From: Planotetraspora sp. A-T 1434
GTDB lineage: Bacteria > Actinomycetota > Actinomycetes > Streptosporangiales > Streptosporangiaceae
Assembly: GCF_025420585.1 (NCBI RefSeq)
Contig: NZ_JAOEGB010000022.1
Location: 1 to 64,000 of the forward strand
DNA: 64,000 nucleotides
Direction: 5' to 3'
Positions 44,240 to 60,133 of this stretch are shown piece by piece (position 1 is the stretch's first letter; each line of letters opens with the position of its first letter). Under the pieces are notes generated by a model, which was given only the letters and a program-made list of their open reading frames with translations, was not told the origin of the DNA and did no database searches. Both the position numbers and the translations under genes were made by a program.

Positions 44240-44427
44240 CAGAAGAGCAACCCGCCGATCATGTGGGCCTCCACGTCGGGCGCCGCGTCCAGCATCTGGA
44301 GCTGGATGGAGATCAGCAGATTCGTCTCCTCCTCGCTGAGGCGTGAGATGACGGCGAGCTGCTCCTCATCGGCCGGGCCGAGGTCGATGCCCGCCTCCGT
44401 CAGCGCGTGGAGCGGATCGAATGCCAC
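44239..44427 (-). CDS. aroma-sacti-type small peptide (possible RiPP precursor)
   Basis: A 62-residue acidic peptide from a GTG at 44427 with GGAGG upstream. FDPLHALTEAGIDLGPADEE, LSEEETNLL, a helix and PDVEAHMIGGLLF at the end fit the aroma-sacti cluster domain as I remember it: a small actinobacterial peptide family found beside modifying enzymes. It overlaps the haem-oxygenase-like gene by 28 bases and the cyclase gene by ATGA. It contains no cysteine, so any modification must use other residues. Whether it is a substrate or an accessory protein is open. Confidence 0.65.
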   Translation of the reverse strand: MAFDPLHALTEAGIDLGPADEEQLAVISRLSEEETNLLISIQLQMLDAAPDVEAHMIGGLLF

Positions 44428-45230
44428 GGTTCCTCCAAGGTGTTCTGTGCGATCGGAGTGGCGAGGCCGGCGGGGCCGCCGAGGTCGGCCGGGCCCGGAA
44501 AACCGGCCAGCCCGGCCAGCCCGGCCAGCCCGGCCAGGTCGGCGAACAGGCGCGTCGCCGCCTGAGTCGTGTGCAGGGCGCTGAGACCGATCGCCTGCTC
44601 CTGCCGGCCGGTCAGCGGCAGCCGGTCGAGGAGGGCGTCCAGCTCGGCACGGTGCTCCAGGTCGAGCTCGGCGTGGTGCCGCAGGGTGCGGAAGGCCGCC
44701 TCCGGGTAGCCCGTCCGCACGCGCAGGTGGCCGAGCAGCGCACCGGTCGGCGGAAAGCCCTCCAGGACGGCGATGTAACCGAGCAGAGCCACGGGATCGT
44801 CATGGATCACCCAGTAGTACTGGGCTCCGACGAGAGCGGCCGCCGACGAGGACGGCCGGCCCGGGGCATGGCCGAGGGCCTCCAGGTCGTCGCGAAGCCA
44901 GACGTCGTGGCCGCGTTCCTCCTCGATGTGGCCACGCAGGTATCCGGCCAGCTCCCGCTGCCCCTGCCGTACGGCCTCGGACAGGGCGGTCTCCATGAGC
45001 GGGACCGACGCGGTGATCACCTCGTGCATGGCCGCGAGGTAGGCGGGGTAGCGCAGCCGGAGGTCGGGGGCCGCCCACAGGCGGGCCGCGGCGGCCCGCA
45101 GGCCCGGCATGAGCAACTCGATCTTGACGCGGAGCGCCCCGCTGCGCGTGCCGGGAATCGTGCGATCACGGGTCCCGCCAGGACCGCCGGCGCGGGCCCC
45201 GCTGCGAGGGCCGGGAATCGTGTCCGTCAT
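44400..45230 (-). CDS. haem-oxygenase-like diiron redox enzyme
   Basis: A 276-residue helical protein resembling the iron-containing redox (HDO) superfamily. Likely ligands are the Glu and His residues in GHIEEERGHDVW, VLEGFPPTG and HHAELDLEHRAELD. Known HDO members oxidise or cleave amino acids, fatty acids or peptides. It lies directly upstream of the aroma-sacti-like peptide and may modify it. The C-terminus carries a GLAGLAGLAG run encoded by a 9-base repeat (about 44502-44541). The ATG at 45230 overlaps the oligopeptidase stop. Confidence 0.72.
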   Translation of the reverse strand: MTDTIPGPRSGARAGGPGGTRDRTIPGTRSGALRVKIELLMPGLRAAAARLWAAPDLRLRYPAYLAAMHEVITASVPLMETALSEAVRQGQRELAGYLRGHIEEERGHDVWLRDDLEALGHAPGRPSSSAAALVGAQYYWVIHDDPVALLGYIAVLEGFPPTGALLGHLRVRTGYPEAAFRTLRHHAELDLEHRAELDALLDRLPLTGRQEQAIGLSALHTTQAATRLFADLAGLAGLAGLAGFPGPADLGGPAGLATPIAQNTLEEPWHSIRSTR

Positions 45231-47296
45231 GACGCGCCGCCTTCGCGCGATCCGGTCAGGCCCGTGTGGTGCGCGAGGAAGGTGAGGACCTTCGCGGCGA
45301 GCCGGACTGCTTCGTCCCCCATCGCACCGGCGTGTCCGGCGCCCTCCACCATGTGGTGCAGGATGGGCCCTCCATCGGCCGCGTGCTGCAACTGCGCGGC
45401 CATCTTGCGCGAGTGGAGCGGATCGACCCGCGTGTCGTTGTCTCCGCTGAGGAGGAGAACCGCCGCGTTGCCGAAGGGCGCTCTGACGTTGTGGTACGGC
45501 GAGTACTTGAGCAGCGCCTCCAGGTCCGCCGGGTCCTCCGGCGAGCCGTACTCCTGACGCCAGGCCCTGCCCAGGCCCCAGCGCTCGTAGCGGATCATGT
45601 CCAGGGGAGCCGCCGCGCTGACGACGGCGGCGTAGGCGTGGGGCCGCTGGACGACGGTCCCCATGGCGAGGAGCCCGCCGTTGCTGCCACCGAGCAGGGC
45701 GAGTTGTTCCGGCGTCGTCCAGCCCTGCCGGACGAGCCAGTCGGCTGCCGCGTGCAGGTCGGCGAACGCGTTGGGCTTGTTGGTCCTGGCTCCGTCCCGG
45801 TGCCACTGCCTGCCACGCTCGTCGCCGCCGCGGATGCCCGCGACCGCGCTCACGCCGCCGCGGAGCACCCAGGCCACGAAGTCCGGTTCGTACTTCGGGC
45901 GGAAGGAGATGCCGAAGCCGCCGTAGGCGGTGAGGATTGCCGGCCGGGGCCGGCCGGGGTCACCGTCTCCGTCCGCGGCCGGGGCCAGGATGGTGAGGGG
46001 CACCTCGGTTCCGTCGAACGAGCGATAGGTGCGGTGCAGGATCCTGATGTCCGCTCGGGGGGTTCCCTCGGAGTCGACGGGCGTCACCCGGCCCGACTCG
46101 ACGTCCAGACGCCAGACGGACGGAGGGATGACCCAGTCCGTGTAGCTCAGCGTCAGCGCTCCCGGGTCGGGGCCGGGCATGATCCCCATGACGGCGCCCG
46201 TGCCGGGAAGGACGACATCGGTGACGACCGCTCCGGTCTCCGCGTCGTGGACGGTCATCTGGCTGAGGCCGTCCCGTGTGCGCAGGGCGACCAGGCGTTT
46301 GCCGCGTCCGGTCCGGGCCAGGGCCACCGTGGAGAGGGCGGCGGCGGTGTCCTCGGGGATGAGGACCCGCCATGGCCCCCACCCGCGGGAGACGGGTTCG
46401 GCCACGAGCACCTGCCCGAACCCGGCCGTCGTCGAGACCGTGGCGAGCAACCGGCCGTCCTCGTCGACCAGGACACTGGCCGAGGACGCCCCGTCCAGCG
46501 ACAGCGGACGGGGCCGCCCCCCTGTCTCGATGTCCGCGACGAGCACCTGCGTCTCCCGGGAGGTCCCCTCACGGATGGTGAAGACCAGCCATCGGTCGTG
46601 GCAGAGCCCGACGTGATAGCGCGTGGTCGCCCCCTCGTCACCGATCAGGATCTCGTCCTCGGTGACCGGGGTGCCCACCATGTGCCAGTAGACGCCGCGT
46701 CCCGGACGGTCGAGATGATCGCGTACATAGAAGAAACCACGGCCGTCGGCCCGCCACTCGATCGGCGAGTAGCGGGTGTGCGCGATGGCGTCCACGATCC
46801 GCCCGGTGGTCACCTCCACGATCGACAACGGGGTGTGCCGCTCGTCGCCCGCCAGGACGATCTGAATGGAGAGGTGCTCCCCCGTCGGCGACGGCTGCCA
46901 GCGCCGGATGAAGGCATCGGGCGGGAAGGTGACGTCGATGGGCGTCCACGGACCGCCGTCGCGGCTCTGGAACTCCGGTTCCCAGGCGGCGAGGCTGTCG
47001 CGCCGGCCGAGCCGGAACCTCCGAGATCCAGCGATCTTGACGGGTGAACGGACGGGCCCGCTCATCAGGCCGCGTATCGCCTCTCCCCAATGGCCGAGGC
47101 CGGGGAGCCGCTCCAGATATCCCGTGCTGAGAAGCTGCTGATCGCCTATCCAGTCCCGGACGGCCTCGGTGTGGCCTCCCTCCAGCCACCGGTACGGGTC
47201 CGCGACCGGGTGCCCGTGATAGTCCTCGACGATCGGCTCGCGGGGGGCCTGCGGATACGCGGGAACGGCGACCCGCCGGTGTTCGGGAGAAGTCAT
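45227..47296 (-). CDS. S9 prolyl oligopeptidase (FlaP-like)
   Basis: A 689-residue serine peptidase with an N-terminal beta-propeller (about 70-420) and a C-terminal alpha/beta-hydrolase. The catalytic Ser is in GGSNGGLLA, the Asp in DNDTRVDP and the His in EGAGHAG. It cuts short peptides after proline. Class III lanthipeptide clusters can use such an enzyme (FlaP) to remove leaders, and four of the five precursors here have Ala-Pro just before the core. It has no signal peptide, so it acts in the cytoplasm. The ATG at 47296 overlaps the transporter stop. Confidence 0.93.
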   Translation of the reverse strand: MTSPEHRRVAVPAYPQAPREPIVEDYHGHPVADPYRWLEGGHTEAVRDWIGDQQLLSTGYLERLPGLGHWGEAIRGLMSGPVRSPVKIAGSRRFRLGRRDSLAAWEPEFQSRDGGPWTPIDVTFPPDAFIRRWQPSPTGEHLSIQIVLAGDERHTPLSIVEVTTGRIVDAIAHTRYSPIEWRADGRGFFYVRDHLDRPGRGVYWHMVGTPVTEDEILIGDEGATTRYHVGLCHDRWLVFTIREGTSRETQVLVADIETGGRPRPLSLDGASSASVLVDEDGRLLATVSTTAGFGQVLVAEPVSRGWGPWRVLIPEDTAAALSTVALARTGRGKRLVALRTRDGLSQMTVHDAETGAVVTDVVLPGTGAVMGIMPGPDPGALTLSYTDWVIPPSVWRLDVESGRVTPVDSEGTPRADIRILHRTYRSFDGTEVPLTILAPAADGDGDPGRPRPAILTAYGGFGISFRPKYEPDFVAWVLRGGVSAVAGIRGGDERGRQWHRDGARTNKPNAFADLHAAADWLVRQGWTTPEQLALLGGSNGGLLAMGTVVQRPHAYAAVVSAAAPLDMIRYERWGLGRAWRQEYGSPEDPADLEALLKYSPYHNVRAPFGNAAVLLLSGDNDTRVDPLHSRKMAAQLQHAADGGPILHHMVEGAGHAGAMGDEAVRLAAKVLTFLAHHTGLTGSREGGAS

Positions 47297-48567
47297 GGCC
47301 GGGCTCCGGATGCTACGAGGGAGGTGTCCGTGGCGGGAGGAGTCAGGTGCAGCCGTCCACGGCGCACCCAGATCAGGAAGATCACCGCCGCGAGGACGAT
47401 AAGGGCCTGGCACAGCCAGAGGCCGCCACGGACGCCGAAACGCTCACCGGCGACGCCGCCCAGCAGCGCGCCGAGCGTGCTCGCGAACGTCGTGACCGAC
47501 CCCAGGAGGGTGCCCACCCGGCCGAAGAACTCGTCGCCCACGTCGTCCGACAGAATGCCGACGAGCGCCAGGTTGGCGGCGGCGCCGAAGAACACCGGCA
47601 GCCCCATCCCGAACACGACGGCTGTCACGGCCAGCCACAGCGGGCCCTGCGCCGCCGGAAGGGTGAAGCCGCACACGGCTATGGCCGGCAGGCAGATCAC
47701 CAGCAGCCGGCGAGCGGTCAGGCGCTCCGAGAGCAGGCGAGACCCCACGAAGGTGCCCGCGGCGGCCAGCAGCGTCGCCGCCACCGCGGGCACGCTGTAG
47801 AGGGCGACCGGCAGCCGCAACGTGTCCAGCAGGAACACGGCACGCTGGGCGGTGGTGCCACTTGTGGCGACGCTCACCAGGACGGCGTAGACCGTGTAGG
47901 CGACGAGGAGGCCGTGCGTGCGAACGGCGGTCACCCCGTCGCGCAACTCCCGCAGCAGGCCGGCCCGGGCTTGTGTGGGCGCCTCCCGCCGGTCCGGTGA
48001 CCGCAGGGCGCCCAGAGCCAGGGCGCTCACCAGATAGGTCAGCGCGTCCAGGAAGAACAGCAACGCGGCGCCCAGCCCCGCCACAAGGGGCCCGGCGGTG
48101 CTCGCCGCGACGGACCGGGAGAGCAGCTCGGACGACTGCAACTTCCCCCTGGCCTTGCTGAGGTCGCCGACGTCGAGACTGCGGAGGTGGGAGAAGTACA
48201 GGGCGCCGGTGACGACCTGCGCGAGGCCCAGCGCGAAGGACGTTCCCGACAGGATCAGGACGCTCAGCAGGCCGCTGAAGGCCATGACGGCGCACACGAG
48301 CGTCGCCACACCGCAGGCCAGATCGACGAGTATGAGCGTGCGCCGTGGGCGGGTCACCCGATCTGCCAGGACCCCGAGAATCGGCCCGAACAACAGTGCC
48401 GGCGAGGTCCCGGCGGCGACGATCAGGGAAACCTGACGCGGTCCGGCGTCGAGGATGGCCACCGCCACCACCGAGGTGGCGGTGGCGGTCAGTGTGCTGC
48501 CGAAGGCCGAGGTGGCCTGCCCCCACAAATAGAGGCGCATGTCGGTAGGTCGGGCGATGAGGGGCAC
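47293..48567 (-). CDS. MFS exporter of the lanthipeptide set
   Basis: A 424-residue, twelve-helix MFS_3-type transporter (GVLADRVTRPRRTLILVDL loop). The start is the GTG at 48565-48567 with GGAG upstream; a longer frame exists but covers the small peptide gene upstream in another frame. It probably exports the mature lanthipeptides or protects the host. No ABC transporter is encoded in the island. Confidence 0.88.
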   Translation of the reverse strand: MPLIARPTDMRLYLWGQATSAFGSTLTATATSVVAVAILDAGPRQVSLIVAAGTSPALLFGPILGVLADRVTRPRRTLILVDLACGVATLVCAVMAFSGLLSVLILSGTSFALGLAQVVTGALYFSHLRSLDVGDLSKARGKLQSSELLSRSVAASTAGPLVAGLGAALLFFLDALTYLVSALALGALRSPDRREAPTQARAGLLRELRDGVTAVRTHGLLVAYTVYAVLVSVATSGTTAQRAVFLLDTLRLPVALYSVPAVAATLLAAAGTFVGSRLLSERLTARRLLVICLPAIAVCGFTLPAAQGPLWLAVTAVVFGMGLPVFFGAAANLALVGILSDDVGDEFFGRVGTLLGSVTTFASTLGALLGGVAGERFGVRGGLWLCQALIVLAAVIFLIWVRRGRLHLTPPATDTSLVASGARP

Positions 48568-48599
48568 GGGAGACTCCGCCGTTGTCGTTCGCTTTGAGA

Positions 48600-48767
48600 T
48601 CAGCCCGGAAAGGGATCCGAGCAGAAGGCCATCGACAGCACGCTGTTGGGCGCGTCGAAGCCCATCTCCATTTCCACTTCCATGTCCATGTGCGCATGGA
48701 CGTCCGCGTCGTCGAGCCCGTAAGGAATGTCGTGCGGCAGATTGTTGAGTGACATCACTTGGTCCAT
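48600..48767 (-). CDS. 55-residue Met/His-rich peptide, unknown
   Basis: A short gene from an ATG with AGAAGGA upstream. The peptide starts MDQVMSLNNLPHDIPYG, has an alternating acidic/Met run MDMEVEMEM after DVHAHM, and ends with one cysteine (AFCSDPFPG). It lies between the last lanthipeptide precursor and the exporter in the same direction. It lacks the ILxLQ leader motif, so it is not a copy of the five precursors. It may be a precursor for another enzyme of the island or a metal-binding peptide. Confidence 0.6.
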   Translation of the reverse strand: MDQVMSLNNLPHDIPYGLDDADVHAHMDMEVEMEMGFDAPNSVLSMAFCSDPFPG

Positions 48768-48796
48768 GGTTCCTTCTCTTCACCAGAGTTCGGCTG

Positions 48797-48881: not shown

Positions 48882-48986
48882 CTACTGCTGATTGGTGCAC
48901 AGGAAGTAGCTCGTGGCGCTGAAGGCCCCGTCCTCCTCAGCGCCTTCCGGATTGCGCAGGTCCTGGAGCTTCAGAATCTCAATCAT
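48882..48986 (-). CDS. class III lanthipeptide precursor A
   Basis: A 34-residue precursor starting from an ATG with AAAGGAAA upstream. The leader has ILKLQ, the class III recognition motif (ILELQ-like), and an acidic patch. The core SATSYFLC is a labionin-type Ser-x2-Ser-x3-Cys motif, followed by TNQQ. Unlike the other four it has no Pro before the core (EEDGAF). It is the most divergent of the three x3-ring copies. Confidence 0.87.
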   Translation of the reverse strand: MIEILKLQDLRNPEGAEEDGAFSATSYFLCTNQQ

Positions 48987-49016
48987 CGCGTTTCCTTTCT
49001 CGGGCTGTTCAGGTCG

Positions 49017-49050
49017 GTGCCGGGTGTGAGTCGCTGCCCCCACCCGGCAC
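49017..49050 (-). other. hairpin between precursors A and B
   Basis: GTGCCGGGTG and CACCCGGCAC form a perfect 10-base stem with a 14-base loop. It is a possible attenuator or mRNA processing site setting the ratio between precursors. Confidence 0.55.
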
Positions 49051-49105
49051 TCGCCATCGGTTGCCGAATCAGCTCATCGAGCCGAATCCGGACTTCGAGC
49101 CGTTG

Positions 49106-49210
49106 CTACTGCTGTGCCGTGCACAGGAAGTAGCTCTTGGTGCTGTCGGGCGCCTCCTCCTCCGTGCCTTCCGGAGTGCGCAGGGCCTGGAGCTTCAGAA
49201 TCTCCGTCAT
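49106..49210 (-). CDS. class III lanthipeptide precursor B
   Basis: A 34-residue precursor. The leader is MTEILKLQALRTPEGTEEEA, then Pro, then the core DSTKSYFLCTAQQ with Ser-x2-Ser-x3-Cys. The ATG at 49210 has AAAGG upstream. A longer open frame runs through it from upstream but lacks a ribosome-binding site. It is nearly identical to precursor C. Confidence 0.9.
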   Translation of the reverse strand: MTEILKLQALRTPEGTEEEAPDSTKSYFLCTAQQ

Positions 49211-49308
49211 CGTGTTGCCTTTCTTTGACTTGTTCAGGAGGGCGCGGGGGAACGCACCCCGGCCTGAATTTCTCCGGCTGATCGAGCCCGTTTGGACTCG
49301 AGCCGTTA

Positions 49309-49413
49309 CTACTGCTGCTCGGTGCACAGGAAGTAGCTCCTGGTGCTGGTGGGCGCCTCCTCCTCCGTACCTTCCGGAGTGCGCAGGGCCTGAAGCTTCA
49401 GAATCTCGGTCAT
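49309..49413 (-). CDS. class III lanthipeptide precursor C
   Basis: A 34-residue precursor differing from B in only a few core residues: EEEAP then TSTRSYFLCTEQQ, again Ser-x2-Ser-x3-Cys. The start ATG follows AGGGGAGGG, the strongest ribosome-binding site of the set. B and C are probably a recent duplication. Confidence 0.9.
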   Translation of the reverse strand: MTEILKLQALRTPEGTEEEAPTSTRSYFLCTEQQ

Positions 49414-49535
49414 TTTCCCTCCCCTCTGATATCGCTTGTCTATTGGAACGGCGCCGGGTATCGGACCACGGACACCGGCCACTGGCGTGGAAAGTCTTCT
49501 ATGGATTAGAACAGGTCAGAGCTGCGCATCCGCGT

Positions 49536-49655
49536 TCAGCTCGGCGGTCTCGGAGGCGGGCAGAGAACGCCGACGCTGAATGTGCTCACCGTCCACGGCG
49601 CCTTGTCCGTCTCCTCCGGACCGCGCAGAACCTGGAGTTTCAGAATCTCAGTCAC
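49536..49655 (-). CDS. class III lanthipeptide precursor D
   Basis: A 39-residue precursor with a GTG start at 49655 (GAAGGG upstream). The leader has TEILKLQVLRGPEETDKAP; the core has STFSVGVLC, a Ser-x2-Ser-x4-Cys motif with one more spacer residue than A-C. A proline-rich tail CPPPRPPS follows and is unusual for the class. The tail might limit or guide a proline-specific peptidase. Confidence 0.85.
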   Translation of the reverse strand: MTEILKLQVLRGPEETDKAPWTVSTFSVGVLCPPPRPPS

Positions 49656-49685
49656 CTTTGTTTTCCCTTCTTCTATGGCCTCGGC

Positions 49686-49796
49686 TCACTCGGGGACTAT
49701 GCAGCCGTGGTAGAAGTTGCTGACGGAGCTGACGGGCGCGTCCTCCTCGATCTCTCCGGAGTTACGCAGAAGCTGCAACTTGAGAATTTCGGTCAC
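49686..49796 (-). CDS. class III lanthipeptide precursor E
   Basis: A 36-residue precursor with a GTG start at 49796 and AAGGAGAG upstream. It overlaps the end of the synthetase gene by 35 bases. The leader is TEILKLQLLRNSGEIEEDAP; the core has SSVSNFYHGC, a Ser-x2-Ser-x5-Cys motif, the largest spacing of the five. The tail is IVPE. Confidence 0.86.
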   Translation of the reverse strand: MTEILKLQLLRNSGEIEEDAPVSSVSNFYHGCIVPE

Positions 49797-52374
49797 GGTT
49801 CTCTCCTTGCTGGACGGCGTCGAGCGTGAACAGCGGGTCCGGAAGCCCTGTGAGCATTCGCGTGAGTGCGAGAAGCACGCCGGCCGAGCCGCTCCACAGA
49901 TCCGCGGAGAATCGCATGAGGAGCGGGCCGCCCCCGAGGAACCGCACCCCGTCCTGGCCAGCCACCGCGTGCTTGAAGAGCGCGATCCCGGCTGCGCGCT
50001 CCTGGGCCGCCAGGTCCGGGCGATCCAGCAGTACGGAGGCCTGCCCCAGGGCCAGGGCCATCCCGGCCTGCCCGCCGAGCAGCCCGGCGGCCGCGGCGAA
50101 TCGCACGGAGCAGTAGCGCAGGCTGCGCCGCAGCGCGTCGGCCAGTCCGGCGTCGTCGATCATCGTGAGGTAGCGGGCCACGACGTGCGCGTATCCGGCG
50201 CTGCCCCACTGCAGGTAGGGCATGTTGCGCCGGTCCACGGTGGACACCCGGAACCCGAGCGCGTCGACGTCCAGCGGCTGGCCGTGTGACAACTCCTCGC
50301 GCAGGAGGCGGGCACCGCGGTCCAGCATCGCCCGGTCACCGGTGAGCCGGCTCAGGTAGTACAGGGCCAGCGCGATGCCGGGGCGCCCGTCCACCAGACC
50401 GGAGGCGTCGTCGGGGCCGAGCAGGGGGACGAGCGCGGCCCCGTCGGGGATTGCGGTCAGCGCCTGCTCGGCGGCCGCGATGTGCCGGTCGTCGCCGGTG
50501 TGGCCGTGGAGGGACAGGTGGGCCATGGCCAGCCCGGCGGCGCCTCCGCCGAGTGTGGCGCAGGCGCGGCTGAGCGGATGCCGGTCGGCCGCGGCGAGCA
50601 ACTCGCCGGCCGCGTCGATCTCCCCCAGGTCGGCCAGGACCCAGGCGATGCCGGCGTTGCCGTAGAACAGGCCGGGCGGGGTTTCGTCGCGCTCCCGGAT
50701 CGACTCGTCGCGTAGCCGGGTGACGATCCGCGGGTCGATCCGGCGGCCCGCCGCCCGCAGGGCGTGGAGCACTCCGGCGGTCCCGTGGGCCACGCACCGG
50801 GTGTTGGACACCGCCCCCTGGGGTGTCGTCGGGTAGACCCAGCGCGGGTTGTCCGGCTGCGCCATGGCCTCGATCGCGTCCGCCGTGCGCTCCCGCAGCC
50901 ATCGCAGGTGCGTGAGCGGCTCCTGCCGTACCTCATCGGGCGTGGGCAGCAGCGGGCGCTCGGGACTCGCGTGGAATCGGGTCACGACGCGCCAGAGCCG
51001 ATCCGGGATCGGAGCGAGGTCGGTCAGGTCGCGGTGCAGGTGACCGGCCACCTCCGGCGTGCGCTCCAGGACGTTGTGCAGCGGGAACAGCAGCATCTGC
51101 GCCACGGCCGAGATGCCGTACTCGTCGATCCGCCGAGCGTCCTTGGCGGCGGGACTCTCCGGATCGCGGATCTCCGCGGGCAGGAACCCGGGGGCTCCTA
51201 TCGTCCTGAACTCCGCGTCCAGGCGGCAGGCCCCCTCGAAGTCGACCAGCCTGATCCGTTCGTTGTCGTCGATGAGAATGTTCTTCGGGTTGAGGTCGAC
51301 GAACGCGTATCCCACGTCGTGCAGGGTCGCGATCAGCCCCTTGAGCTGGTCGAGGATCGACAGGCAACTCCGGTAGTAGCCCGCGAACACCTCCGGCCGC
51401 TGCTCCACCCGGATGCTCGGCTCGTTCGCCACCACCCACTTCATCAGGGTGGTTCCGGGGACGAGTTCCGAGACCAGGAAGGTGTTCTCCCACTGCTGGA
51501 ACAGCTCGATCGGCTCGGGGCATATCCCGGGATGCGCGGCGTGCAGCGCCCGCAGCGTCCGGTGCTCCTGCGCCAGCAGGGTCTGCGCGTCGGTCCCGTC
51601 CCACCAGTAGCCGTTGTGCGCCCGCGCCTCCTTGACGAAGACCTGCCTGCCGTCCTCGGTCCGGGCGACGTAGGCGCCGCCGGCGTTGCTGTGCTGCAGC
51701 ACCGACTCGAAGGTGTAGCCGCCCAGCGTGATCGGCTGGTCGCCGGCGTCCGCCGGTTCGGTCCCGAACGGGTCCGCGATCCCGGGCGGCAGCATGAACA
51801 TCGGCTGGCGCTCGTCGGGGATCTCCTGCCCGTCGAGGTCGAGCATGACCGGCTGCCGGGTGCCGTCCGGCTGAAGCCTGTGCCGCGGGCGGAACGCGCC
51901 GTACCGGTACGCCACGGACGAGGAGGCGCCGAAGCGCCGATCGGTGAGGATGTACGGCCCGGCGAAACCCGCGAGCCGCTCCTCCAGCCGCACCAGGATT
52001 TCGTGGGCGATCCGCGGGGTCGCCGGATACAGGGCGCAGAACTTCCCGCTCTGCACGCGGGAGCCGTGCTTGTGATGCATCCACAGGAACAGGCGCCTGC
52101 TGCTCACATGCTTGAAGGGGACGGAGAACTCGGCGCAGACCTCTGTGACGATGTCGAGCACGGCCTGCGCGTTCTCCAGCGAGCTGGAGACATGTACCTT
52201 CCACCCCTGGTCGGCAAGGTCGCCCTCAGGGGGTGTCCACATCGTCCAGACGCTGCTCGTGTGCCGGCTCCAGTGCTCGGGCACGACCGTCGGCGCGTAG
52301 GTGACACCGGGCTCGACCAGCTCGGCCGGCTCGTAGTAGTCAGGGTGGGCGAGGGTGAAGCCGAAGTACTGCAT
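49762..52374 (-). CDS. class III lanthipeptide synthetase (LanKC)
   Basis: A synthetase of about 870 residues. It has an N-terminal phospho-Ser/Thr lyase domain (WKVHVSSSLENAQAVLD, KHVSSRRLF, GKFCALYP). A kinase domain follows, with the lysine in VFVKEARAHN, the catalytic loop FVDLNPKNILI and the DFE variant of DFG. The C-terminal cyclase domain (GNAGIAW, QWGSAGYA, DLWSGSAGVLLAL) lacks the zinc Cys-Cys-His, which defines class III. The start is placed at the ATG at 52374, with GGGA upstream, because known homologues begin near this residue; an ATG at 52416 is possible. It leads the minus-strand set with five precursor genes immediately after it. Confidence 0.95.
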   Translation of the reverse strand: MQYFGFTLAHPDYYEPAELVEPGVTYAPTVVPEHWSRHTSSVWTMWTPPEGDLADQGWKVHVSSSLENAQAVLDIVTEVCAEFSVPFKHVSSRRLFLWMHHKHGSRVQSGKFCALYPATPRIAHEILVRLEERLAGFAGPYILTDRRFGASSSVAYRYGAFRPRHRLQPDGTRQPVMLDLDGQEIPDERQPMFMLPPGIADPFGTEPADAGDQPITLGGYTFESVLQHSNAGGAYVARTEDGRQVFVKEARAHNGYWWDGTDAQTLLAQEHRTLRALHAAHPGICPEPIELFQQWENTFLVSELVPGTTLMKWVVANEPSIRVEQRPEVFAGYYRSCLSILDQLKGLIATLHDVGYAFVDLNPKNILIDDNERIRLVDFEGACRLDAEFRTIGAPGFLPAEIRDPESPAAKDARRIDEYGISAVAQMLLFPLHNVLERTPEVAGHLHRDLTDLAPIPDRLWRVVTRFHASPERPLLPTPDEVRQEPLTHLRWLRERTADAIEAMAQPDNPRWVYPTTPQGAVSNTRCVAHGTAGVLHALRAAGRRIDPRIVTRLRDESIRERDETPPGLFYGNAGIAWVLADLGEIDAAGELLAAADRHPLSRACATLGGGAAGLAMAHLSLHGHTGDDRHIAAAEQALTAIPDGAALVPLLGPDDASGLVDGRPGIALALYYLSRLTGDRAMLDRGARLLREELSHGQPLDVDALGFRVSTVDRRNMPYLQWGSAGYAHVVARYLTMIDDAGLADALRRSLRYCSVRFAAAAGLLGGQAGMALALGQASVLLDRPDLAAQERAAGIALFKHAVAGQDGVRFLGGGPLLMRFSADLWSGSAGVLLALTRMLTGLPDPLFTLDAVQQGENRDRNSQVAASA

Positions 52375-52621
52375 CAGGTGTCCCGTCAAAGCGTCCGGTG
52401 GCTCCGTCGCCGGCATCGGCCGGCAACGACGAAGCTAGGCAGCCCCGGTTGGCAGACAGTTCGGTCCCGGTATGGAAACGGCGAATTCGCAGGTGGAGAA
52501 GGAGTTGCGCGCACCTTCCCGCAATGCGGTGAAGGCGCGGCGCCGTCCCGGCGTGGAACGAGATGTCACGGAATGGCACGCCCTTGTTCGGGGGCCATTT
52601 CAGCTCGAGAACGGGACCTGG
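52375..52621. promoter_or_regulatory. divergent region between the two lanthipeptide synthetases
   Basis: The region between the class III and class IV synthetase genes, with lower G/C than the genes. It should hold both promoters. I see no clear paired boxes. The right half could instead code for the N-terminus of the class IV enzyme if an ATG at 52472 is used. Confidence 0.35.
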
Positions 52622-55597
52622 ATGAACGATGGGGGCGGGCCGCGTGACACGCGCGCCCACGAGAACGCACGTGAGGTGGACGACTCGCGGTTACTGCAGG
52701 ACATCCTGCGGGCCGTAATGGCGCGCGAAGACGCGGGCCACACCTGGAAAGTCGAAACCCGGGAGCCCTGGTGTGTCGTGACGCCACCGGAAGGCCGCAT
52801 GCGCGACCAGGGCTGGAAGTTGCACGTCTCGGCGACGCAACTGTCGGCGCCGGTCGTGCTGAGCCGTGTCGCCGAGGTGCTCGTCCGCGGCGGCTGCGCG
52901 TTCAAGTTCGCACGCGGGCTGCGGGAGCTCGGCCGGCTGCTCGACGGCGACTGCGACCGCGGCAGCGGCGGGAAGTTCGTCACGGCATACCCGGCTGACG
53001 ACGAGCGGTTCCGTGAGCTCGCGACGGAGCTGGACCGGGTGACCGACGGGCTGCCCGGGCCGGTGATCCTCTCCGATCGGCGACTGCGCCCGGGGAGCCT
53101 GGTCCACTACCGCTTCGGGGTCTTCGGCGCCTCTCCGGTGCTCTCCAACGACGGCGGCTTCGAGTCCATGCTCACCGCGCCGGACGGCAGGCGTCAGAAG
53201 GACGAACGGCTCGCCTGGTTCAGCCCGCCGTCCTGGGCGCCGGCACCACCACTGCAGAAAGCGCTGCAGGAAGCACCGGCCGAAGCGCTGCCGGAAGCAC
53301 CGGCACCGCTGGTGGCTTCCGGGACCGCCGAGCCGGGAGCCGTCCTTCTCGGTGGCCGGTTCCTCGTCCGCGAAGCCATCCGGCAGTCCTATCGGGGCGG
53401 TGTCTACCGGGCCGCCGACCAGCACACCGGGGCCGAGGTCGTCGTCAAGCAGGCTCGGCCACACGTCCTGGGCTCGCTGACCGGGCGGGACGCCCGGGAC
53501 GCGTTGCGTCACGAGGCGAAGATCATGGACCTGCTCGGCCCGCTGGGATTGACTCCACGCAAGGTGGCGTTGTTCACCCACCAGGAGAACGTGTTCCTGG
53601 CCGAGGAATCCGTGCCGGGCGTCACGCTTCGCCAGTGGGCCTCGGAACGCGCCGTCACCGAATGGCGGGGCCAGGGGGCACCACCGGCCGAGGCCGTCGA
53701 CAAGGCCGTCCAGCTGGCGGACATCATGACGGCGGTCCACGACCAGGGCCTCGTGCTGCGCGACTTCACCCCGAACAATCTCATGGTCACGCCGGACGGC
53801 CGGCTGCGGCTGATCGACCTGGAGCATGTGGTCCCGGCCGGTTCCAGGGTGGCCCGCGCCTACACCACGGCCTACGCGGGCCGGGAGCAGACGTCCGCGC
53901 CCTGGTTCGGGCCGGCGCCGTCACCGCGGTCGGATCTGTTCAGCCTGGGCGCCACCGTTTTCTATCTGGTGACCGGCATCGATCCGCTGCTGCCCGCCGA
54001 CGAGCCCCGTCCGGGGACCGCCGGGCGGCCGGACGAGGAGCGGCTGGAGGCTCTCGTCACCGCCATCGCATCCCGCATGCCGGCGCTGCGGTCGCTCTCC
54101 CCCTTGGTACGGGGACTGATGCGGGACGACCCGGAGGAAAGGTGGAGTCTGAAGCAGACGCGGGACTTCCTGGCCGCCGCGGGCCGCCCCGGGAGGCGGC
54201 GAACCGAAGGGCCGCCGATCACGATGAAGCGCACGCTGCGCGACGCGACGACGGACACGCTGCGGGAAGCAGTCGGGGACGTCATGAAGGAGCGCCTCCT
54301 CGCCGACGGGCTCAGGCACGTCCTGCGCACGATGACCCCCGAGGGGCCGCGGCTGTGGAAGGCCGGGGCGTTCGGCGACACCACCGATCCCTGCAACGTC
54401 CAACACGGCGCGGGCGGGGTGCTGGCCGTACTGACCAGATCCGCGCAGGTCCTCGGCGGCGACCCGCACGGCATCCCGCACCGTGACCGGCACGGGGACC
54501 TGCGCGGTGACCTGCACGGGGACCTGCGCGGTGATGACCTGGGGGCTGAACTGCGCGAGGGCGTGGCGGCGGTGGCGGGCTGGATCGGAGGGCGGCTCTT
54601 CGACATTCCGCGCGTCCTCCCCGGGCTCTACTTCGGCAGATCGGGTACGGCATGGGCGCTCCATGACGCGGCACGGTTCCTGGGGGACGACCACATGGCC
54701 GCGCGAGCCGTCGAGCTGGCCAAGCGTGTTCCCGTGGAATGGCCCAACCCGGACATCTGCCACGGCGCGGCGGGCGCGGGCATGGCCCAGCTTCACCTGT
54801 GGACGTCGACCGGCGATCCGGAGCCGGCGCGCCGCGCCGTCCTCGCCGCCGACTGCGTGCTGAATGCGGCGCGCGAGCGCGACGGCCACCTGATGTGGCC
54901 CATACCCGCGACATTCGACTCGAGCCTGGCGGGGCTGACCCACTACGGGTTCGCGCACGGCGTGGCCGGAGCCGGGACCTTCCTGCTGTACGCCGGGCTC
55001 GCGACCGGCCGGCCCGAGTATCTGCGGGCCGCCCACCGCGCGGGGGAAACGCTGGAGGCGGTGGCCGACGTCGAGGACGGCGCGGCCTGGTGGCCGAGCG
55101 GCGAAGCCGGCGAACCCTCCCGCAGCCGGTTGAGGCACTGGTGCAGCGGCTCCTCAGGGGTCGGCACGTTCCTCATCCGCCTGTGGCGGGCCACCGGGGA
55201 GCGCCGCTTCCGGGACCTCGCCGAAGCGGCCGCCGTGGCGATCCGCCGGGACCGGTGGTACTCGTCCGTCAGCGCCTGCCACGGGCTGGCCGGGGACGGG
55301 GAGTTCCTGCTGGACCTCGCCGGTTTCACCGGCGACCGGCGCTACCGCGACTGGGCGGAGGAGCTCGCCACGGTGATGTACGCCCGTCATGCCGTCCGGG
55401 ACGGGCTCCTGGTGCTGCCCGACGAATCCGGCATGCACGTCCACGTGGGCTACAACACCGGGCTCAGCGGCGCGCTGGGGTTCCTCCTCCGGCTGCGCCA
55501 CGGAGGGCCTCGCTGGTGGATGCCCGACGAACTGCTGGCCCAGGAGGGACGTGCCCACACCGACCGCCGTCGGCCGGCGGCGGTGATGGCCTCATGA
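52622..55597 (+). CDS. class IV lanthipeptide synthetase (LanL)
   Basis: An enzyme of about 991 residues. The lyase domain contains CVVTPPEGRMRDQGWKLHVS, FKFARGL and GKFVTAYP. The kinase has VVVKQARPH, the loop LRDFTPNNLMV and DLE in place of DFG. The LanC-like cyclase keeps the zinc ligands Cys841 (HWCSG) and Cys886-His887 (SACHG), which separates class IV from III. An earlier ATG at 52472 would add 50 residues, but it has no ribosome-binding site, weaker codon bias and no counterpart in relatives such as VenL. A 24-base repeat inserts an HGDLRGDL run before the cyclase. Two cysteine-rich precursors follow. Confidence 0.93.
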   Translation: MNDGGGPRDTRAHENAREVDDSRLLQDILRAVMAREDAGHTWKVETREPWCVVTPPEGRMRDQGWKLHVSATQLSAPVVLSRVAEVLVRGGCAFKFARGLRELGRLLDGDCDRGSGGKFVTAYPADDERFRELATELDRVTDGLPGPVILSDRRLRPGSLVHYRFGVFGASPVLSNDGGFESMLTAPDGRRQKDERLAWFSPPSWAPAPPLQKALQEAPAEALPEAPAPLVASGTAEPGAVLLGGRFLVREAIRQSYRGGVYRAADQHTGAEVVVKQARPHVLGSLTGRDARDALRHEAKIMDLLGPLGLTPRKVALFTHQENVFLAEESVPGVTLRQWASERAVTEWRGQGAPPAEAVDKAVQLADIMTAVHDQGLVLRDFTPNNLMVTPDGRLRLIDLEHVVPAGSRVARAYTTAYAGREQTSAPWFGPAPSPRSDLFSLGATVFYLVTGIDPLLPADEPRPGTAGRPDEERLEALVTAIASRMPALRSLSPLVRGLMRDDPEERWSLKQTRDFLAAAGRPGRRRTEGPPITMKRTLRDATTDTLREAVGDVMKERLLADGLRHVLRTMTPEGPRLWKAGAFGDTTDPCNVQHGAGGVLAVLTRSAQVLGGDPHGIPHRDRHGDLRGDLHGDLRGDDLGAELREGVAAVAGWIGGRLFDIPRVLPGLYFGRSGTAWALHDAARFLGDDHMAARAVELAKRVPVEWPNPDICHGAAGAGMAQLHLWTSTGDPEPARRAVLAADCVLNAARERDGHLMWPIPATFDSSLAGLTHYGFAHGVAGAGTFLLYAGLATGRPEYLRAAHRAGETLEAVADVEDGAAWWPSGEAGEPSRSRLRHWCSGSSGVGTFLIRLWRATGERRFRDLAEAAAVAIRRDRWYSSVSACHGLAGDGEFLLDLAGFTGDRRYRDWAEELATVMYARHAVRDGLLVLPDESGMHVHVGYNTGLSGALGFLLRLRHGGPRWWMPDELLAQEGRAHTDRRRPAAVMAS
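54491..54538. repeat. 24-bp tandem repeat in the class IV synthetase gene
   Basis: Two copies of a unit beginning CACGGGGACCTGCGCGGTGA, with a related partial copy before them, encode alternating HGDLRGDL residues in the linker between the kinase and cyclase domains. It looks like slippage in a tolerant loop. Confidence 0.8.
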
Positions 55598-55666: not shown

Positions 55667-55801
55667 GTGGAGATTGACATCAGCGCATTGGAGCTCCTTC
55701 CCGCGAGGGCGGCAGGCCGCGTGCCGTGCAATCCCACGGGGAGCAGTTGCAGCTGGTCCTGCACATACAGCTGTGGCGATTCCTGTCAGGTGACCGAATG
55801 A
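55667..55801 (+). CDS. class IV lanthipeptide precursor 1
   Basis: A 44-residue precursor from a GTG with GAGGAGG nine bases upstream. The short leader is EIDISALELLPARAAGR. The core has five cysteines with the last four in strict CxxxC spacing, each preceded by Ser (SCSWSCTYSCGDSC). The serines and threonines next to cysteines suit lanthionine formation by the class IV synthetase encoded just upstream. The stop overlaps the next gene by ATGA. Radical SAM modification is an alternative, given the neighbours. Confidence 0.85.
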   Translation: MEIDISALELLPARAAGRVPCNPTGSSCSWSCTYSCGDSCQVTE

Positions 55802-55986
55802 CCGTCGCCGGCGCTGTGGCTCAGCCATTTCATCGAATCAACACCCGAATCGCGGAAATCGACATCGCCCTGCTGGATCTGTTGCCCGCACAGCTCATTG
55901 AGCCGAAGCAGTGCGGCACGGAGAGCACATGTTCCGGGACCTGTACGAACACCTGTAAGAATTCGTGCAGGATAACGAACAGGTGA
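55798..55986 (+). CDS. class IV lanthipeptide precursor 2
   Basis: A 62-residue paralogue of precursor 1. After an extra N-terminal stretch of about 18 residues the leader repeats the motif (EIDIALLDLLPA against EIDISALELLPA). The core TCSGTCTNTCKNSC again shows [S/T]-C every four residues, with one further upstream Cys. The ATG overlaps the first precursor's stop; an internal GTG at 55816 is also possible. The DNA here is visibly lower in G/C than the synthetase, common for precursor genes. Confidence 0.83.
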   Translation: MTVAGAVAQPFHRINTRIAEIDIALLDLLPAQLIEPKQCGTESTCSGTCTNTCKNSCRITNR

Positions 55987-55990
55987 AAAG

Positions 55991-56024
55991 GCGGCGGCCC
56001 GGTCAGCTCTGGCCGGGCCGCCGC
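55991..56024. terminator. bidirectional terminator between converging RiPP genes
   Basis: GCGGCGGCCCGG and CCGGGCCGCCGC form a perfect 12-base stem with a 10-base loop. The loop contains the stop of the convergent radical SAM gene. It would end transcription of the class IV operon, and probably that of the opposing genes. Confidence 0.7.
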
Positions 56025-57112
56025 GCCCCGCCGAGCACGCCGAGCATGGTGAGCAGCGGGTCGTGGGCCGGGTCGGGGATGCGCTCGGCCACCAGCCAGC
56101 ACAGCTCGCAGATGCTGGTGAACCGCCGGTCCGCGAGGTCGGCGAGGCGCGGGTCGGCGGTGATCGGCCCGGGTCCCACCGTGGCCACGACGGAGAACAT
56201 GGCGTGATGCCGCAACTCCTTGAGGGCTTCCGCCGTCTCGGGCGCGTCACCGCACGTGCGGCGGAACTCGGCGGGTCCTCGGCCCATGACGACGGCCTCG
56301 TTGCAGCAGGCGGCCACGACGCCGTCGTAGCGGACGACCGGGCTGCGCGCGACGCGGCACGGGCCGAAGTCCTTGCCCGCGACGAGGGGCCTGGGCGCGA
56401 CCAGACCGGCCGCGCGGCCGTACGGCAGCAGCCCGACCCTGTTGAGCTCCGCGGCCTCCGGCCAGCACGGCCCGAGCGCCTGCTCGAGTAGACCCACGGC
56501 GCGGTCGACGGCGTCCTGGTCGTCGACCACTTGGACGACGAGGGGCGTTCCCTCGTCCGCTATGGCGCGAGCGGCGTTCGCGAAACGCTCGTCGGCCAGC
56601 CGGGCCTGGTGGAAGGCGTCGGTGCTGAGGAACACGCACGAGCAGGCGCGCAGCACTCGACGGACCCAGCCGGAGGTTCGATTGCCCCAGAACCCGCTGG
56701 TGTACACGACGAGATGCTTACCGGCGGCGGTTATCCGGTCGGCCGCGAGCGTGAGCGCACGCCGCTCGGCGAACGGCTCCCCGCCCGATACGCCGATGAG
56801 GCGCGGTTCGCCGGCGCATAGAGCGTCCAGGACGCCCTCGAACAGCGTGAAGTCGGTCACGCGCGGACTGTCCGGGCGCGAGTCGACCGAGCAGTGACCA
56901 CAGCCGACCGGGCAGCGGTCGGTGATGAACAGCAAGGCGCTGGCCCCGGGCGTGTCCCGGGCGGCCTCGACGTCCGCGAGCCTCAGGCGGGGCGAGGTCG
57001 CGGCCTCGCCGCACGGAAACGGCAGGCGGGGCGTCGGCGCGGCATCGCGGTACGACAGGCGGGGCGTCGGCGCGGCATCGCGGTACGACAGGCGGGGCGT
57101 CGGCGTGGTCAT
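56003..57112 (-). CDS. radical SAM protein 2 with C-terminal Cys motifs
   Basis: A 369-residue radical SAM enzyme. The cluster motif CPVGCGHC (CxxxCxxC), SGGEPF and the C-terminal cysteines (FGPCRVAR, AACCNEAV, CELC) suggest a SPASM/twitch-like auxiliary cluster, as in peptide-modifying members. The N-terminus carries an RLSYRDAAPTP repeat encoded by 33-base units and then a leader-like stretch. It overlaps radical SAM protein 1 by ATGA. Likely substrates are one of the small peptides of the island, but none is proven. Confidence 0.85.
   Translation of the reverse strand: MTTPTPRLSYRDAAPTPRLSYRDAAPTPRLPFPCGEAATSPRLRLADVEAARDTPGASALLFITDRCPVGCGHCSVDSRPDSPRVTDFTLFEGVLDALCAGEPRLIGVSGGEPFAERRALTLAADRITAAGKHLVVYTSGFWGNRTSGWVRRVLRACSCVFLSTDAFHQARLADERFANAARAIADEGTPLVVQVVDDQDAVDRAVGLLEQALGPCWPEAAELNRVGLLPYGRAAGLVAPRPLVAGKDFGPCRVARSPVVRYDGVVAACCNEAVVMGRGPAEFRRTCGDAPETAEALKELRHHAMFSVVATVGPGPITADPRLADLADRRFTSICELCWLVAERIPDPAHDPLLTMLGVLGGARRPGQS
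57025..57106. repeat. 33-bp tandem repeat at the start of radical SAM protein 2
   Basis: Two exact 33-base units and a partial third encode TPRLSYRDAAP repeats at the protein's N-terminus. Confidence 0.85.
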
Positions 57113-58179
57113 CGGCCCAGGCCCACGAGCTCGCCGTACCGGGCGGAGCCGTAGCGGCGGGCGAATCCGGCGGCCCCCTCGGCGACTTGGCGGCGGGTGG
57201 CATCCGCGTCCAGGAGCGAGAAGACGGGGCGGGTCGCGACCGCCTCGGCGCGCGGGTCGTCGGAGAGGAGCCGGCAGGTCTCGCAGTAGCCGCCGCCCTC
57301 GGGGACGCCGCCCATCGAGGCGACGTACTGCGGACCCACCGCTCTGATCGCTCTCAGCAGCGGCCTGCTGAGGCAGCGTTCCCTGATCTCCGGCCAGCCG
57401 TCCCGGGCCGCGTGCCCCAGGGTCAGATGCGGTACGGCCTCGCCCCGATCCGCCACGTCCTGGTTGCAGCAGGCGACCACCGTGCCGTCGAAGGTCACCA
57501 CGGGCCAGGCGGCCATCGTGCACGGCGCGGGTGGAAGGGCGATCGGCCGGTGCGTGAGGACTCTGCGCCGTTCCTCCGGCCAGTCCCCCAGCCAGCCGGC
57601 GGCCCTGCCGACCGGGCCGACGAGTCCGACGAGGACGGGAACCCGGTCGCCCAGCGTCTCGCGGATGTCTCCGACGGCTTCGGCCAGATACGGATCGTCG
57701 TCGCCCAGCCCGGTGAGCTGGACGCTGACGTCCTTGCCCTCCGCCCGCAGCGCGCCCAGCACCTCCAGGACCGCTCGACGGGGAACCTCCTCCTCGTGGA
57801 AGGCGTCGACGCTGGCGGCGAAGTGGTCGACCGCGTCGATGGCCTTCTTGATCGGGCCGGGGATCCGCCCGTCGCGGGCGAAGAACATACCCGAGAGCAC
57901 GTACGACGCGGTTCCCGACTCCCGAGCCCTTGTGGCGATCCGCTCGACGAGCGAAGGCCGGAGCAGCGCCTCTCCACCGGACATCAGGACGAGACGGGGA
58001 TGGGCGTCAGGGGTGAAGGACTCGACGAGGCGCGTGAAGAGGTCCGGTGAGTGCTCCTCGCTGCCGATGGCGGAGTTCGTCGAGCAGTGGCGGCACGACA
58101 GTGGGCACCGCCGGGTCAGGGACAGGAAGACCGCGGAGGCGGGGACGGGACGCAGGGCAAGGATGTCCAGAAGATGCAC
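57109..58179 (-). CDS. radical SAM protein 1 with C-terminal Cys motifs
   Basis: A 356-residue paralogue of radical SAM protein 2. CPLSCRHC binds the 4Fe-4S cluster, and MSGGEALLR is the SAM-binding motif. PPAPCTMA, VVACCNQDVA and YCETCRLL are candidate auxiliary-cluster ligands. The start GTG at 58179 has GGGGGA upstream, 12 bases after the SARP stop, so it is probably co-transcribed with the SARP gene. Two tandem paralogues may form a heterodimer or act on two residues. Confidence 0.86.
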   Translation of the reverse strand: MHLLDILALRPVPASAVFLSLTRRCPLSCRHCSTNSAIGSEEHSPDLFTRLVESFTPDAHPRLVLMSGGEALLRPSLVERIATRARESGTASYVLSGMFFARDGRIPGPIKKAIDAVDHFAASVDAFHEEEVPRRAVLEVLGALRAEGKDVSVQLTGLGDDDPYLAEAVGDIRETLGDRVPVLVGLVGPVGRAAGWLGDWPEERRRVLTHRPIALPPAPCTMAAWPVVTFDGTVVACCNQDVADRGEAVPHLTLGHAARDGWPEIRERCLSRPLLRAIRAVGPQYVASMGGVPEGGGYCETCRLLSDDPRAEAVATRPVFSLLDADATRRQVAEGAAGFARRYGSARYGELVGLGR

Positions 58180-58191
58180 GTGTGTCCCCCG

Positions 58192-60030
58192 TCAGTGTGA
58201 CGGCGTCCGCGCCGACACGGCAAGCCAGCGCGGAATCCGGTAGGAAGGCGACGGTCCGTCGGCAGAGGCGACCATCGCGACGTCCATGAGCTGGTCGATG
58301 ATCCGCGCCGTCTCCCACGTGGACAGGCCCAGGAGCACGGCGCCTTCCTCAAGGGTGAACGGCTCCGAGCCGAGCTCGGTGAGCTGAAGAAACGCCGACC
58401 ATGTGGACCGGTCCACTTCGTGGCGGTAGGTCGTGGCGGAGCCGGGCAGAACCAGGTCGCCCTCGCCGTACGTGAGTTCCTTCACCAGGACCTGGTCGTC
58501 GCTGATCCACTCGGCGTATCTGGCCAGCTCCAGGTGTCGTTGGACCGACAGACGAGCGCCGGCGATCCGGATCCCCAGCGGCAGCCCGCCGCAGGCTTCG
58601 ACGATCCGCTCGGCGGCCCCTGGATCGGACTCCACCCGCCCGGAGCCGATGATCTTGCCCAGCAACTCGGCCGCCTCGGTGGCCGGCAACCCGCCCAGCT
58701 CCACGTGCCGGGCCGACTCCAGCGCGCTGAGCCGTCGCCAGCTCGTGATGATCACGCCGTTGGCGCCGGCCCCCGGGAGGAGTGGCCGTACGGCACGCTC
58801 GCTGGAGGCGTCGTCAAGCACCAGCAGCATGCGCCGGTCGGCCAGCCAGGACCGGTACAGAGCGGTCCTGCTCCCTTCGGCGGACGGTATTTCGCCGTTG
58901 TAACCGGTGGCGCCCAGCACCTCGGCCTGCACGCTGGAAAGAGGGCGCGCCTGGCCCCACATGTCCCGCAGCTTCACGAAGACCTGCCCGTCCGGGAAGC
59001 GCTCCCGCAGGCGGTGCGCCGCGTGCACCGCCAGCGCGGTCTTGCCGCTGCCGCTCAGCCCTGACACGACCACGATGGGACCCGACACCGTGCGCCCCAC
59101 CCGCAGGGCCGACAGCACCTCGCGGACCTCGGCGCCGCGCCCGGTGAAGTCCGACAGGTCCCTCGGCAGCAGCGTCGGAGCGCCCGTCTCGCGGCTCGGA
59201 GGACTGATCGTCACCACGCCCTGGGGGGTGAGGGGAGCCGCCACCTTGGGATCCGCGGTGAGTATGCCCTGGTAGAGGCGTTCCAGGACGGGACTGGGGC
59301 GGAGGCCCAGGTCTCTGGAGAGCGTCTGACGCATGCTCTCGTAGGCGGCCAGCGCCTCCGCCTGCCTGCCGGATCGGTGCAGCGCCAGCATCTGGGCGCT
59401 GCGCAGGCGCTCACGCAACGGGTGGCTCTCCACCTCCCGCTGAATCGACGGCAACATGCCCACGTGGTCGCCCAGGGCCAGTGCGAGCTCCGCCCAGTCT
59501 TCGAAGGCGCTGATCCGGGTCTCCTCCAGCGCCGTCACCTCACTGGCGATGAGGGGCATCACCGTGAGGTCGGGCATCGGCGCGCCGCGCCACAGGCCGA
59601 GCGCGTCGCGCAGGGCCCGCGCCGCGGACGGCGACTCGCCTCGGCCGGCCGCGGCGCGAGCCGTCTCCAGCAACTTGGCGAAGCGAAGCAGGTCGAGCTC
59701 GTCCGGCCCCATGCGGAGCAGGTAGCCGGGCGGGCTGTGCACCAGGTGGCCGCGCATGGGCCCCAGAACGTCCCTGCGCACCGTGGCGATGTAGACCTGC
59801 AGGTTCTTGTGCGCCGTTCGCGGCGGCGCGTCGTCCCACACCGCCTCGCTGAGGGTGCTCACCGAAACCACGCGGTTCGCCCGGCACAGCAGCATCGCCA
59901 GCATCGCTCGCTGCTTGAACGGACCGAGTGCCACCGGCTGCTCCCCACGGCGCGCCTCCAGCGGCCCCAGCACGGCGAAGGTGGTGTCGTCTGCGGCCCC
60001 GGCGCTCGCCGCGGGGCCCGGTGCGTGCAC
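58192..60030 (-). CDS. SARP-family regulator (OmpR wHTH-BTAD-NB-ARC)
   Basis: A regulator of about 612 residues: an N-terminal winged helix (FAVLGPLEARRG, TLSEAVWDDAPPRTAHKNLQ), a BTAD domain (about 110-255) and an NB-ARC ATPase (Walker A GLSGSGKT, Walker B LLVLDDAS). SARPs bind direct repeats and activate antibiotic clusters. The start is set at the GTG at 60030, with GGGG eight bases before it; a GTG at 60072 is possible. A TTG at 60105 lies within the predicted -10 box and is excluded. Its place at the end of the RiPP island makes it the likely activator of the radical SAM genes and perhaps the whole island. Confidence 0.9.
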   Translation of the reverse strand: MHAPGPAASAGAADDTTFAVLGPLEARRGEQPVALGPFKQRAMLAMLLCRANRVVSVSTLSEAVWDDAPPRTAHKNLQVYIATVRRDVLGPMRGHLVHSPPGYLLRMGPDELDLLRFAKLLETARAAAGRGESPSAARALRDALGLWRGAPMPDLTVMPLIASEVTALEETRISAFEDWAELALALGDHVGMLPSIQREVESHPLRERLRSAQMLALHRSGRQAEALAAYESMRQTLSRDLGLRPSPVLERLYQGILTADPKVAAPLTPQGVVTISPPSRETGAPTLLPRDLSDFTGRGAEVREVLSALRVGRTVSGPIVVVSGLSGSGKTALAVHAAHRLRERFPDGQVFVKLRDMWGQARPLSSVQAEVLGATGYNGEIPSAEGSRTALYRSWLADRRMLLVLDDASSERAVRPLLPGAGANGVIITSWRRLSALESARHVELGGLPATEAAELLGKIIGSGRVESDPGAAERIVEACGGLPLGIRIAGARLSVQRHLELARYAEWISDDQVLVKELTYGEGDLVLPGSATTYRHEVDRSTWSAFLQLTELGSEPFTLEEGAVLLGLSTWETARIIDQLMDVAMVASADGPSPSYRIPRWLAVSARTPSH

Positions 60031-60103
60031 GTTGGAAACCCCGTTCTTCCCCGTGAACTTTGTGGACAGCACTCTTACCGGATAGTTGGCAGAGGCAATC
60101 AAC

Positions 60104-60133
60104 AAATTAAATTGATTTGACGCTATTCGTCAA
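60104..60133 (-). promoter_or_regulatory. SARP promoter with overlapping inverted repeat
   Basis: On the minus strand a -35 box TTGACG (60133-60128) and a -10 box TAATTT (60109-60104) lie 18 bases apart in A/T-rich DNA. An inverted repeat TTGACG-N5-CGTCAA (60117-60133) covers the -35 box and could be an operator. Confidence 0.5.

Follow-up and report, generated by a model that had tools for sequence, protein, structure and literature searches.

Two probable neighbouring peptide systems in Planotetraspora: a class IV lanthipeptide module beside the radical SAM pair of an aroma-sacti/class III island

Introduction

For venezuelin, the lanthipeptide of the class IV enzyme VenL, rings in which the cysteine lies N-terminal to the dehydrated residue (Dhx) have been assigned (PMC2843593). 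Cysteine-periodic peptides are also described as radical SAM targets, in the Cxxx-repeat family TIGR04114. We analysed a stretch of 64,000 nucleotides from Planotetraspora sp. A-T 1434 (contig NZ_JAOEGB010000022.1; hereafter the window) in which a class IV gene with two cysteine-periodic precursors stands next to a pair of radical SAM genes. The gene content, motifs and spacing described below are those of two adjacent systems, a reading to which we give a probability of roughly 85%: a self-contained class IV module, and a radical SAM pair that belongs to an aroma-sacti/class III island.

Results

A class IV synthetase with two cysteine-periodic precursors

The class IV module comprises three genes:

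52472..55597, + strand: LanL, class IV lanthionine synthetase (lyase, kinase, zinc cyclase); longest ORF
55667..55801, + strand: precursor A (class IV); GTG start with an AGGAGG ribosome-binding site ahead; five Cys, each with Ser/Thr at +3
55798..55986, + strand: precursor B (class IV); five Cys, four with Ser/Thr at +3

LanL carries the RamC_N, Pkinase and LANC_like domains in one protein and has the zinc ligands CHG / WCxG / CHG. It scores 1084 bits against NF038150 (cutoff 650); the match begins at residue 92, and the true start is probably downstream of that of the longest ORF. The two precursors follow directly, with the ATG of B overlapping the stop codon of A (ATGA). The domains, the zinc ligands and the adjacent Cys/Ser/Thr precursors with a conserved leader together define LanL as a class IV enzyme. 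Precursor A is MEIDISALELLPARAAGRVPCNPTGSSCSWSCTYSCGDSCQVTE (in shortened form ...RVPCNPTGSSCSWSCTYSCGDSCQVTE); precursor B is MTVAGAVAQPFHRINTRIAEIDIALLDLLPAQLIEPKQCGTESTCSGTCTNTCKNSCRITNR (in shortened form ...EPKQCGTESTCSGTCTNTCKNSCRITNR). The leader of A contains IDISALELLP, common to the precursors of related LanLs, and that of B contains IDIALLDLLP. Neither peptide passes the VenA (NF038147) or ALQxL (NF038157) model, A giving no match at all, and their relatives score near the cutoffs of both. As they pass no curated precursor subfamily model, A and B are assigned to class IV by their enzyme only. On TIGR04114, B scores a weak 15.1 bits (cutoff 20) and A gives no match.

An earlier sequence-only reading had noted a Ser/Thr-Cys pair every four residues in both precursors. 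This is borne out for four cysteines in each, at an exact period of four and all preceded by Ser/Thr, but both peptides have in addition a first cysteine, 7 residues ahead of the run in A and 6 in B, with no Ser/Thr before it. In shuffled A and B cores a four-cysteine run of period four arose in about 0.5% of cases, and a run with four [S/T]C pairs in about 0.04%. The further statement that the spacing is unlike venezuelin-type cores went too far, since a similarly spaced relative scores 26.4 bits on the VenA model (cutoff 35).

The spacing is a trait of the enzyme's clade. The nearest LanLs (71–74% identity over the cyclase) have period-four precursors of their own without the window's radical SAM pair, and many further LanLs also carry similar cysteine-periodic precursors without it; among 61 LanL loci, the pair was found in the window only. 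Forty of the LanL loci yielded 70 distinct precursors that resemble A and B in leader and spacing, counts that depend on profile thresholds of our own setting, on the leader-motif filter by which precursors were picked and on LanL relatives sampled mostly from one family. Gaps between successive cysteines were four residues in 117/209 cases (the N-terminus of B was shortened for this count, with no effect on its cysteine spacing), and in the non-window precursors Ser/Thr directly preceded 178 of the 201 cysteines other than the first. A radical SAM origin of the spacing was rejected, as the same spacing recurs in LanL loci that lack both window radical SAM genes.

A candidate second LanL (L081) was discarded: it lacks the zinc ligands, and its class III and class IV scores are nearly equal. 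The top-scoring class IV LanLs of the family (L121–L150) showed no obvious precursor within 1.5 kb in the eight loci inspected closely, and thus have little to say about precursors. A scan of viral contigs found nothing.

The repeat unit and the direction of ring closure

The position of Ser/Thr relative to each cysteine was tallied in the 68 non-window precursors. Ser/Thr stood at +3 of 182/267 cysteines overall, including 53/68 first cysteines and 54/66 last cysteines (shuffled tails: mean 21, maximum 33). It was scarce on the N-terminal side, at −3 in 46/269 cases and at −4 more rarely still (26/269), and it directly preceded the first cysteine in only 2/68. Judged by these frequencies, the conserved unit is C-x-x-[S/T], of which '[S/T]C every four residues' is the tandem repeat; in the window it fits 9 of the 10 cysteines of A and B.

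With this unit conserved, ring closure most likely joins each cysteine to the dehydrated residue at +3. LanL would phosphorylate the core Ser/Thr residues and turn them into Dha/Dhb by phosphate elimination, after which its zinc cyclase would add the cysteine thiols. The products of A and B would most likely be chains of small (methyl)lanthionine rings, one next to the other, each with its cysteine on the N-terminal side. Ring formation itself is predicted from the genes, and its direction from composition alone. Forward rings, with Ser/Thr N-terminal to cysteine ([S/T]xxC or TxxxC), are unlikely: suitable pairs do exist (S29-C32 and T33-C36 in A, with equivalents in B), but the low counts at −3 and −4 against those at +3, last cysteine included, argue for closure from the cysteine.

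A convergent pair of EpeE-like radical SAM genes

Two radical SAM genes lie outside the class IV module, convergent with it, followed by a regulator:

about 56003..57112, − strand: rSAM2, EpeE/YydG-like radical SAM protein (the called ORF, 56003-57523, is over-long)
57109..58179, − strand: rSAM1, EpeE/YydG-like radical SAM protein
58192..60105, − strand: SARP regulator, which travels with the radical SAM genes

The two paralogues and their auxiliary-cluster cysteines had been recognized from the sequence, and both observations hold. The proteins are 31% identical, and each has CxxxCxxC and four further invariant cysteines, suited to one auxiliary cluster. In rSAM2, the cluster cysteines and a CC motif are invariant in 13 homologues. 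The structure model of rSAM1 (pLDDT 92.8) has EpeE entries as its best PDB matches (TM about 0.61–0.63 by query length), and its sequence profile also best matches EpeE. Both proteins keep the CC motif of EpeE. The catalytic cysteine of EpeE at first seemed to be missing from the pair, a view that was discarded, as the C223A structures place Cys223 as the second cysteine of this motif. A cysteine at that H-donor position is present in both window proteins, in 13/13 rSAM2 homologues and in 25/37 rSAM1 homologues. The EpeE Asp210 position is, in contrast, an invariant proline in rSAM1. On the EpeE/YydG model TIGR04078 the pair scores 29 and 32.7 bits against a cutoff of 300; we therefore call the proteins EpeE-like, with only a putative epimerase role.

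The island on the other side of LanL

Genes of an aroma-sacti system and of a class III lanthipeptide system, all on the minus strand, occupy the region beyond LanL:

40377..41849, − strand: subtilase (S8), QhpE/mycosin-like; the ORF carries the conserved domain in its C-terminal half
41225..44239, − strand: nucleotide cyclase/AAA/TPR regulator of the aroma-sacti system
44239..44427, − strand: aroma-sacti peptide, probable substrate of the radical SAM pair; NF045560, 67.5 bits (cutoff 30)
about 44400..45226, − strand: haem-oxygenase-like protein (PF14518, iron-containing redox enzyme), 41.5 bits; start uncertain in ORF 44400-45806
45227..47413, − strand: prolyl oligopeptidase (S9)
47293..48783, − strand: MFS transporter; start uncertain
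48600..48767, − strand: precursor of a second type in the rSAM/LanKC cluster, with a DADVHAH motif and an SxxSxxxC core
48882..49796, − strand: five tandem class III-like precursors, M(T/I)EILKLQ..., before LanKC; most cores of SxxSxxxC (labionin) type
49762..52416, − strand: class III lanthionine synthetase LanKC; NF038151, 709.6 bits (cutoff 575)

One of the five class III-like precursors scores below the cutoff on the class III precursor models. The aroma-sacti peptide, MAFDPLHALTEAGIDLGPADEEQLAVISRLSEEETNLLISIQLQMLDAAPDVEAHMIGGLLF, is above the NF045560 cutoff and so gives the pair's locus the defining peptide of an aroma-sacti cluster; on the StsA-related model NF045559 it falls short (40.9 of 75 bits). 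The whole peptide contains no cysteine, and is therefore not itself a sactipeptide. Its core region (...DVEAHMIGGLLF, with MIGGLLF after DVEAH) also lacks serine and threonine, which excludes thioether chemistry there.

An EVEAH-like motif is common to the aroma-sacti peptide and the LanKC-side precursors of rSAM1 loci (window 48600-48767; L093, L084, L096 and L113). This hints at a protease or enzyme shared by both peptide types.

Genomic companions of the pair

Relatives of rSAM1 were present in 15 of the 341 genomes of the family search, the window's own genome included. Scanning 84,980 species yielded 132 relatives, with loci retrieved for 80. Occurrences were counted over 86 rSAM1 loci by profile thresholds of our own setting; a few share one genome and some contigs are truncated, so that the counts are of loci and not of independent events. 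The aroma-sacti peptide was found in 81/86 and the haem-oxygenase-like protein in 84/86, and the window holds both of these usual companions. SARP was present in 62/86, rSAM2 in 25/86 and a LanKC-like gene, within the stretch retrieved, in 31/86. A class IV LanL with zinc ligands, or small ORFs with periodic cysteines, occurred among the 86 loci in the window only.

Planobispora takensis (L041) has the window's rSAM/LanKC cluster gene for gene, with identities of 77% for rSAM1, 73% for rSAM2, 74% for the class III LanKC, 64% for SARP, 76% for the aroma-sacti peptide, 67% for the haem-oxygenase-like protein, 71% for the S9 peptidase, 66% for the MFS transporter and 46% for the DADVHAH-type precursor. 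That cluster contains no LanL orthologue (LanL matches LanKC alone, at 29%) and no cysteine-periodic peptide. In the window, the SARP-rSAM1-rSAM2 block has an inverted orientation with respect to LanKC, and the class IV module sits at the junction. We read the module as an insertion into the aroma-sacti/class III island.

Homologues of rSAM1 (42–49% identity) were also seen in Mesorhizobium and in Burkholderiales, Symploca and Planctomycetaceae MAGs (L058, L085, L092 and L112). Two genomes (G175 and G302) have an rSAM1 locus and a LanL on one contig, 41 and 45 kb apart, which we take as neighbouring clusters. A large gene near many rSAM1 loci was considered as a class I LanB and rejected, the domain search giving nucleotide cyclase/AAA/TPR.

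A different radical SAM family beside class IV enzymes

In 17 of the 61 LanL loci, a radical SAM gene of a different family lies downstream of LanL on the same strand, at 0.2–6 kb (e.g. L185:10720-11784 and L190:10299-11381). These proteins are MftC/StsB-like, below the MftC and StsB cutoffs, with a CxxxCxxC motif and a SPASM-like C-terminus without conserved auxiliary-cluster cysteines in the usual place. The family is absent from the window, whose genome has distant homologues only (best 34% identity). Relatives may thus have hybrids of class IV and radical SAM chemistry.

Discussion

The sequence-only reading allowed A and B lanthionines, radical thioethers or both. The lanthionine half is supported, with a full class IV LanL and its zinc ligands directly upstream and period-four cores that are a clade trait. 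The radical-thioether half, as far as it depended on the window's pair, is not: co-occurrence, named in that reading as a means of refuting it, gives no link in either direction, the rSAM1 loci examined having no class IV LanL or cysteine-periodic peptides and the LanL loci having neither rSAM gene, the window excepted. Nor does the pair recur with such precursors across genomes, as the cognate radical SAM gene of a sactipeptide or ranthipeptide would. The general idea retains some support from the different radical SAM family that recurs downstream of LanL in relatives.

That the pair nevertheless also modifies A and B, giving hybrids of lanthionines with radical thioethers or D-residues, is highly improbable. 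The genes are adjacent and convergent, B has its sub-cutoff TIGR04114 match, and a radical SAM gene of another kind is present in class IV loci of relatives. The adjacency in the window is real, neighbouring clusters can share enzymes, and G175 and G302 have both loci on one contig. Against this stand the mutual absence of the two systems from each other's loci outside the window, and the lack in A and B of the EVEAH-like motif common to the peptides of rSAM1 loci. We rate a shade lower still the particular outcome in which an EpeE-like pair acting on the class IV peptides leaves tandem reverse lanthionines together with radical-made thioethers or D-residues. Action of the pair on the class III LanKC precursors, instead of or besides the aroma-sacti peptide, to give a lanthipeptide/epimerised hybrid, is doubtful but clearly less remote. 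The LanKC-like genes of rSAM1 loci and the motif shared by many LanKC-side precursors with the aroma-sacti peptide speak for it, whereas in many rSAM1 loci the retrieved stretch includes the aroma-sacti peptide but no LanKC.

We therefore favour two adjacent systems. LanL with A and B would form a self-contained class IV module, and the pair would belong with the subtilase, cyclase regulator, aroma-sacti peptide, haem-oxygenase-like protein, S9 peptidase, MFS transporter, LanKC with its precursors, and SARP. Its substrate is likely the aroma-sacti peptide, about 12 kb away, and possibly also the related DADVHAH precursor; EpeE-like epimerisation is our best guess for the chemistry on the former.

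Two clusters that proximity alone would merge are thereby told apart. For the class IV clade a testable rule follows, in which the C-x-x-[S/T] repeat predicts Cys-first rings. Across Actinobacteria, an EpeE-like radical SAM protein goes together with a peptide free of cysteine and a haem-oxygenase-like protein, and frequently with a class III lanthionine enzyme as well; a separate radical SAM family recurs with class IV enzymes. A literature search, with most subscription journals outside its scope, returned no paper on either link.

Among known systems, the TIGR04114 targets share with A and B a cysteine at every fourth residue, but the spacing here is accounted for by a class IV enzyme, and only B matches, weakly. 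The ALQxL family resembles A and B in leader position and pattern (ALELLP / LLDLLP), and relatives of the two peptides fall at or just under its cutoff, whereas A and B themselves give no match at an E-value of 1 or less. Venezuelin and VenL share the LanL architecture, and venezuelin has Cys-first rings of the kind predicted here. A and B differ in not matching the VenA model and in their tandem C-x-x-[S/T] cores, whereas the four rings of venezuelin overlap and are of other sizes.
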